Assembly: GCA_035532555.1 (NCBI GenBank) | Contig: DATKQS010000006.1 | Location: 73,380-126,327, forward strand | Source of the DNA: Thermoplasmata archaeon | Lineage (GTDB): Archaea > Thermoplasmatota > Thermoplasmata > Lutacidiplasmatales > UBA184 | Direction of reading: 5' to 3' | DNA length: 52,948 nt | In this document: piece by piece, positions 23,364 to 30,390 of the stretch | Position numbering within the stretch: position 1 is the first letter of the stretch | Layout of the letters: each line of letters starts with the position of its first letter | Position numbers and translations under genes: made by a program | The notes under the pieces: model-generated | What the model saw: only the letters and a program-made list of their open reading frames with translations | The model's database searches: none | Told to the model about the DNA's origin: nothing

Positions 23364-23490
23364 CGTTAGACCGGCACGCCGCCGGCCCTCGTGGGTCGAT
23401 ACGGGCGTCGATGAGCGACGAGCCCTCCCTCGACCCGCACGCGAACCGGTCGTTCTGCAAACGTTAATGCCGCGGGCGGGATAGTCTTCC

Positions 23491-23582
23491 TCGCAGGGGG
23501 AGCTGTGAACCGGCTGAGAGGACGAGCACGCCTCGTCGACCCCAGGAACCTGCACGGGATAATGCCCGCGAAGGGAACGCGA
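23491..23582 (+). promoter_or_regulatory. TPP (THI-box) riboswitch aptamer
   Basis: Thiamine pyrophosphate aptamer controlling the thiamine ABC transporter. Seen in order: P1 strand TCGC pairing with GCGA at 23579-23582; P2 GGGG pairing with CCCC near 23540; the invariant CTGAGAG around 23513-23519; a P3 hairpin GACGAG/CTCGTC; then AACCTG, GGGATAATGCCCGCGAAGGG with the conserved ATAATGC and GCGAAGGGA that contact the pyrophosphate. An AT-rich ACGTTAATG at 23461-23469 is a plausible TATA box about 25-30 nt upstream. TPP switches are known in Thermoplasma-type archaea but are rare in archaea overall. Confidence 0.92.
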
Positions 23583-23601
23583 TGGACGAAGTAACCATCC
23601 T

Positions 23602-30201: not shown

Positions 30202-30308
30202 CGCCCGTGCTGGGATTCGAACCCAGGTCTGAGGCTCCGCAGGCCTCTAGGATATCCAATGTAGCAGGACGGGGGGAACCCCCGCTCCCGAAGCTACCCC
30301 ACACGGGC
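30202..30308 (-). tRNA. tRNA-Arg(GCG) with a 32-33-nt intron in the D loop
   Basis: Acceptor stem GCCCGTG (30302-30308) pairs perfectly with CACGGGC (30203-30209), discriminator G at 30202, CCA not encoded. T arm CTGGG-TTCGAAT-CCCAG; anticodon stem GAGGC/GCCTC with the 7-nt loop CTGCGGA, so anticodon GCG (Arg, CGC codons). The D arm is split: GGGGTAGCTT is followed by an extra GC-rich hairpin before GGATATCC. Removing about 30258-30290 restores a standard D arm with A20, an arginine identity base. Around the junctions GTAGC pairs with GCTAC, flanked by 3-nt bulges TTC and ATT, a bulge-helix-bulge-like splicing motif. Minus-strand CTTTTATAC at 30349-30357 could be its TATA box. Confidence 0.88.
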
Positions 30309-30390
30309 ATTCGTGGTCGTTCGTACCGAGGCGTGCGAGCGGAGGAGTGTATAAAAGCCCGGTCTCGGCGATCGCGCCCGCCGCGCCACA

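Follow-up and report, generated by a model that had tools for sequence, protein, structure and literature searches.

The window, a stretch of 52,948 nucleotides (G000:C6:73380-126327) from an acid-habitat archaeon of Thermoplasmata, very probably carries a functional single-copy tRNA-Arg(GCG) gene whose D loop is interrupted after T17 by a non-canonical intron. As read from the sequence, the intron presents a relaxed HBh' splicing motif, which an alpha'2 endonuclease would cut, and RtcB would join the exons. The source assembly, G000, comprises 1.60 Mb in 27 contigs and is 96% complete.

Gene structure and splicing motif

The gene occupies 30308-30202 on the minus strand of the window and reads GCCCGTG TG GGGT AGCT[TCGGGAGCGGGGGTTCCCCCCGTCCTGCTACAT]TGGATA TCCT A GAGGC CTGCGGA GCCTC AGAC CTGGG TTCGAAT CCCAG CACGGGC G, in which brackets enclose the intron (Table 1). 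The acceptor stem (GCCCGTG/CACGGGC), the T arm (CTGGG-TTCGAAT-CCCAG), and the anticodon arm (GAGGC-CTGCGGA-GCCTC) are all uninterrupted. When the 33-nt insert is left out, T8, A14, G15/C48, G18G19, A21, and the T-loop invariants are all in place. By pairing and cloverleaf, this is the tRNA-Arg(GCG) with intact acceptor, T, and anticodon arms that the initial annotation had proposed without giving a strand, and the extra 32-33 nt that it had placed in the D loop instead of at 37/38 amount to 33, the upper value. ARAGORN called no tRNA in the window, and the Rfam model RF00005 recognised only the 3' part of the gene, scoring 21.9 bits against a cut-off of 29 bits; such weak detection is expected because the gene is interrupted. 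A second GCG tRNA was not found among the 43 RF00005 matches of G000, and the gene in the window is the only recognisable tRNA-Arg(GCG). The window's only Rfam match at gathering score is a TPP riboswitch on the plus strand at 23486-23594 (RF00059, 60.7 bits; cut-off 54.3).

Table 1. Features of the tRNA-Arg(GCG) locus, in window positions
Feature	Position	Strand	Basis or remark
Promoter box TTTTATA, ~47 nt upstream of tRNA-Arg(GCG)	30350..30356	-	Box shared by most genus copies
Exon 1, tRNA positions 1-17: GCCCGTGTGGGGTAGCT	30292..30308	-	Complementary to the 3' acceptor strand; one compensated acceptor pair is the sole difference within the genus
Central 4-bp helix, 5' arm GTAG (exon positions 12-15)	30294..30297	-	BHB search
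5' bulge CTT, expected cut CT|T at 30292/30291	30291..30293	-	Cut after the second bulge base, the position used in AFU BHB RNA (PMC12397907)
D-loop intron, 33 nt: TCGGGAGCGGGGGTTCCCCCCGTCCTGCTACAT	30259..30291	-	Missing in other-family relatives, whose exact D loop is left after excision
Intron hairpin h': CGGGA (30290-30286) / TCCTG (30269-30265), then GC-rich stem and loop	30265..30290	-	Paired in 28 distinct introns of variable sequence
Central helix, 3' arm CTAC, within the intron	30261..30264	-	Genus variants CTGC, CTAC, CTAT, and CTAA (once)
3' bulge ATT, expected cut AT|T at 30259/30258	30258..30260	-	Any of the four bases precedes the cut in genus copies
Exon 2, 57 nt: remaining D arm, anticodon arm, T arm, acceptor 3' strand, discriminator G	30202..30258	-	Cloverleaf fit
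Anticodon GCG, for CGC and CGU	30238..30240	-	

The intron separates T17 from the next T of the D loop (site 17/17a). The cut rule was taken from the BHB RNA of the AFU and ARMAN-2 crystals, in which the cleavage-blocking dU14 is the second base of the bulge A13-dU14-A15 (PMC12397907). With cuts between bulge bases 2 and 3 in the GTAG/CTAC register, the spliced product reads GTAGCTTGGATATCC, which is the sequence of intronless relatives. The D loop after excision is GTAGCTTGGATA, exactly as in those relatives, and the predicted spliced tRNA has 74 nt with the junction GGGTAGCT/TGGATATCC. The site thus has the 3-nt bulges with tRNA-restoring cuts (CT|T and AT|T) of an archaeal BHB, as well as a 4-bp helix (GTAG/CTAC) that joins the 5' exon to the intron's 3' end and of which at least three of the four pairs form in 28/28 distinct genus introns. 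The intron hairpin has an MFE fold z of -3.4. An outer helix abutting the 3' bulge, as in the strict hBHBh' form, was not found; G11 is opposite G18, and the closest base pairs within the exons are those of the D stem. Hence, the motif is of the relaxed HBh' (bulge-helix-loop) form, which settles the choice between BHB and bulge-helix-loop that the initial annotation had offered. The flanking pairs GTAGC/GCTAC and the 3-nt bulges that it described do exist, but its register is off by one: the 5-bp register leaves one extra base, and this and the other registers make the D loop 1-2 nt longer than that of relatives.

Splicing endonuclease and ligase

Profile search identified a single PF01974 gene in G000 (G000:C23:15017-16081, 354 aa). 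Its product has the hallmarks of an alpha'2 enzyme, namely two fused PF01974 repeats (residues about 81-164 and 262-345 of 354) and the catalytic Tyr, His, and Lys, present as Y285, H300, and K331 and invariant in 33 sequences. With this one PF01974 gene, neither a separate beta subunit gene nor a three-unit epsilon chain was found in G000, and of the relatives with a detected gene (61 genomes searched), nearly all have one two-domain PF01974 gene. G000 and 32 aligned relatives are without the CSL/ASL insertion that carries a lysine before the catalytic repeat. Specifically, YGSKLGDRLELSLIE of the G000 enzyme aligns gap-free to YGSEKGDLVTLSLIE of AFU, and the CSL of 3P1Y, an engineered AFU enzyme, sits exactly there. 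The AlphaFold model of the G000 enzyme has a pLDDT of 93, and its best PDB matches are the fused M. kandleri enzyme 5x89 and the A. fulgidus alpha'2, ARMAN-2 4fz2 being far poorer. With the alpha'2 enzymes of Archaeoglobus fulgidus (1RLV, 2GJW) and Thermoplasma acidophilum (2OHC) it shares the fused two-repeat chain, the Y/H/K triad, the fold, and the lack of a CSL, and the TM-score between the A. fulgidus enzyme and the model is 0.87-0.89 by target length. It differs from both in its 354-aa length, in a longer loop of the N-terminal repeat, and in the many non-canonical introns of its genome. This loop (residues about 98-120 of EndA, L031), longer than in A. fulgidus and ending in the conserved LPRGG..KTPSRFW, is a candidate specificity determinant. 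The endonuclease gene is 96% identical to that of the Thermoplasmata MAG YP1.bin63 and 62-73% identical to those of UBA184, SubAcS, and AcS genomes; UBA184 and SubAcS10-22 have been assigned to the order Lutacidiplasmatales (PMC9287336), to which the window therefore very probably belongs as well. An RtcB ligase is also present (G000:C16).

The sequence itself shows a helix of the exon bases G12-T13-A14-G15 with CTAC from the 3' end of the intron, a 3-nt bulge on either side of this helix, and a separate hairpin formed by the body of the intron. In the splicing route that we favour, the alpha'2 homodimer, the sole splicing endonuclease known from G000, would cut both bulges between bases 2 and 3, and RtcB would ligate the exons to give the 74-nt tRNA. 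We infer that the G000 enzyme cuts the relaxed motif, and there is a tension in this: the alpha'2 type is described as narrow and enzymes with a CSL or ASL are held to be necessary for relaxed motifs (PMC6379350), and the G000 enzyme has neither loop, yet its site is relaxed. AFU is itself described as narrow, cutting a BHL at 37/38 only in full-length pre-tRNA (PMC6379350, PMC12397907). The stated need for a CSL or ASL speaks for a real intron that is removed not by alpha'2 but by an undetected broad-specificity enzyme of the epsilon2 or heterotetramer kind. We regard this as unlikely, given the single two-domain PF01974 gene in G000 and in nearly every relative with the gene, and given that homodimers are stated to be able to cut bulge-helix-loop motifs (PMC8707768). 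The initial annotation had likewise held that an epsilon2 or heterotetramer endonuclease was needed; a genome search for such genes returned only the alpha'2 gene without CSL/ASL, which does not support that view.

Conservation of the intron among relatives

All full-length copies of the gene in the genus (30/30) can be spliced by the same rule, giving three near-identical mature forms (27, two, and one copies, respectively). The form found twice is without one D-loop T, and the form found once has a compensated change of a T-A to a C-G acceptor pair. The genus exons are otherwise invariant, while the introns, 31-35 nt long, comprise 28 distinct sequences. Over the first eight positions of h', a fraction of 0.848 is paired in register in these 28 introns, compared with 0.711 (sd 0.02, at most 78%) after the 3' halves were exchanged between species and 34-54% after the register was slid; the excess over swapped halves is the compensation looked for in an archaeal BHB intron. 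The base directly before the 3' cut is A, C, G, or T across the genus, a free variation expected because it belongs to the intron. A point against this reading is the copy L050, in which one of the four central helix pairs does not form. A TATA box is located at -47 to -55 in 28 of the genus upstream regions compared and is missing in a few copies only. One genome, G021, carries two tRNA-Arg(GCG) copies (L039, L078) with identical exons and different introns; one copy is at a contig end, where duplication and contamination are indistinguishable.

In several other families of the class, tRNA-Arg(GCG) is intronless and reads GGGTAGCTTGGATATCC or a one-base variant (L062-L065, L067, L068, L073-L075). 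Comparison with the relatives' genes agrees with an intron on both counts, the intronless D loop being the spliced sequence and the genus copies following the cut rule without exception. Introns at the same site with GTAG/CTAC and unrelated hairpins are found in another family of the order (L066, TAACA..TGTTA) and in a further family of the class (L072, TTCAGG..CCTGGA). A third family of the order includes two genomes (L076, L077) whose tRNA-Arg(GCG) has a 37/38 intron instead.

The insert might also be an unspliced D-loop expansion retained in the mature tRNA, for which its stable hairpin would speak. We consider this very improbable, since excision leaves precisely the intronless sequence, the geometry is that of a BHB, the last base ahead of the 3' cut varies, and other G000 tRNAs have at least 14 additional introns at BHB-like sites. 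That the gene is a pseudogene or a decaying copy, with CGC and CGU read by another tRNA, is scarcely credible even though ARAGORN and Rfam miss it, as its exons are conserved genus-wide with one compensated acceptor-stem change, its promoter box is conserved, no other GCG tRNA is among the 43 RF00005 matches of a MAG 96% complete, and CGC is the commonest Arg codon in the EndA gene (27/51).

Non-canonical tRNA introns in Thermoplasmata

Aside from the predicted D-loop intron of tRNA-Arg(GCG), at least 12 tRNA genes of G000 have a T-loop intron at 59/60 (loci L163-L173, L027-L029): Lys-TTT, Arg-TCG, Ser-GCT, Ala-GGC, Ser-GGA, Ser-CGA, Asp-GTC, Gln-CTG, Glu-CTC, Arg-TCT, Asn-GTT, and Gly-TCC. 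These are among the tRNAs that the RF00005 list lacks or gives in truncated form. Two more candidate D-loop introns, with less certain ends, are located in tRNA-Met (initiator-like, L168) and Lys-TTT (L163, two introns), and canonical 37/38 introns were fitted in Met (L020), Tyr, Trp, and Leu-TAA. In total, G000 has at least 15 non-canonical tRNA introns, the Arg(GCG) one included. In this non-exhaustive census, tRNA-His, Ile(GAT), Leu(TAG), Pro(GGG), and Pro(TGG) were not located.

The boundaries of T-loop introns were set from T-stem and acceptor pairing alone. Most of those in G000 have a 3' end of the GGAAAC|T or CGAAAC|T type, which is paired with exon TTCR. Across 56 T-loop introns from 16 genomes, the central helix between TTCR and the last six bases of the intron has three or four pairs in every case (56/56; mean 3.59 versus 1.77 when shuffled), and h' has a mean of 4.9 pairs versus 0.6 when shuffled. 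The outer helix is the T stem itself (G53-C61), so that the many introns with four central pairs are of the strict hBHBh' form. As a pattern for listing tRNAs, GTTCRANNC was too common. The pattern GTTCRAAN{8,37}GAAANTC was uninformative in AT-rich genomes, its reversed control being equally frequent, and therefore only matches completing a cloverleaf were counted. T-loop introns also turn up in the order's sister families, and at least five more families have them (f5, f8, f9, f23, f24; one in f14); similar non-canonical introns are present in at least six further Thermoplasmata families. A tRNA-Lys(TTT) from another family of the class (L246, G094:C25:87132-87472) forms a cloverleaf only with three candidate introns, one in the D loop and the others at 37/38 and 59/60. 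Non-canonical tRNA introns, as predicted from such fits, are a class-wide habit in Thermoplasmata. The statement of the initial annotation that they are uncommon on the Euryarchaeota side is in line with the literature (PMC3218864, PMC4090602) but does not hold for this class, where they are widespread. In the sister-family genome G038 (L202-L205), T-loop introns are just 13-15 nt long, e.g. TTCAAA[AATTTTTTGAAAA]T, which is near the smallest possible BHB intron.

Relation to known systems

The Arg(GCG) intron belongs to a known kind, the non-canonical archaeal tRNA introns. The non-canonical BHB introns of Thermoproteales/Pyrobaculum (PMC4090602, PMC3218864) share with it the 4-bp central helix, 3-nt bulges, and intron hairpin. 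D- and T-loop sites (20/21 and 59/60 there), multi-intron tRNAs, and low intron sequence conservation are also common to both systems; the present host differs in being a member of Thermoplasmata with an alpha'2 endonuclease. Site 17/17a is missing from the positions printed in PMC4090602, though that list closes with 'etc.'. The canonical 37/38 archaeal intron has the same motif logic and presumably the same enzyme, whereas the Arg(GCG) intron lies in the D loop and has no adjoining outer helix on its 3' side. Korarchaeum cryptofilum also combines a homodimeric enzyme, alpha2, with non-canonical tRNA introns, but its enzyme is reported to have a specificity loop (PMC4033280), which the G000 enzyme does not. 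A search of the literature yielded no paper on such introns in Thermoplasmata or Methanomassiliicoccales, although they may already be annotated in supplementary tables or GtRNAdb.

According to reviews, euryarchaeal alpha4 and alpha'2 enzymes go with few, canonical tRNA introns, and non-canonical ones arise after a specificity loop has been acquired (PMC4090602, PMC4033280, PMC6379350). We lean towards the view that, in Thermoplasmata, an alpha'2 enzyme without such a loop supports a large class-wide expansion of D- and T-loop tRNA introns, with up to three candidates per tRNA, and that this works for the T-loop introns because the T stem and the invariant TTCRA loop already supply the outer and central helices of the BHB. 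If so, the accepted link of specificity loop and enzyme type to intron diversity would be broken, and the G000 lineage would be a counter-example that can be tested in vitro. The tRNA sets of such genomes are under-counted, as the standard Rfam tRNA model overlooks or cuts short about one third of those in G000.
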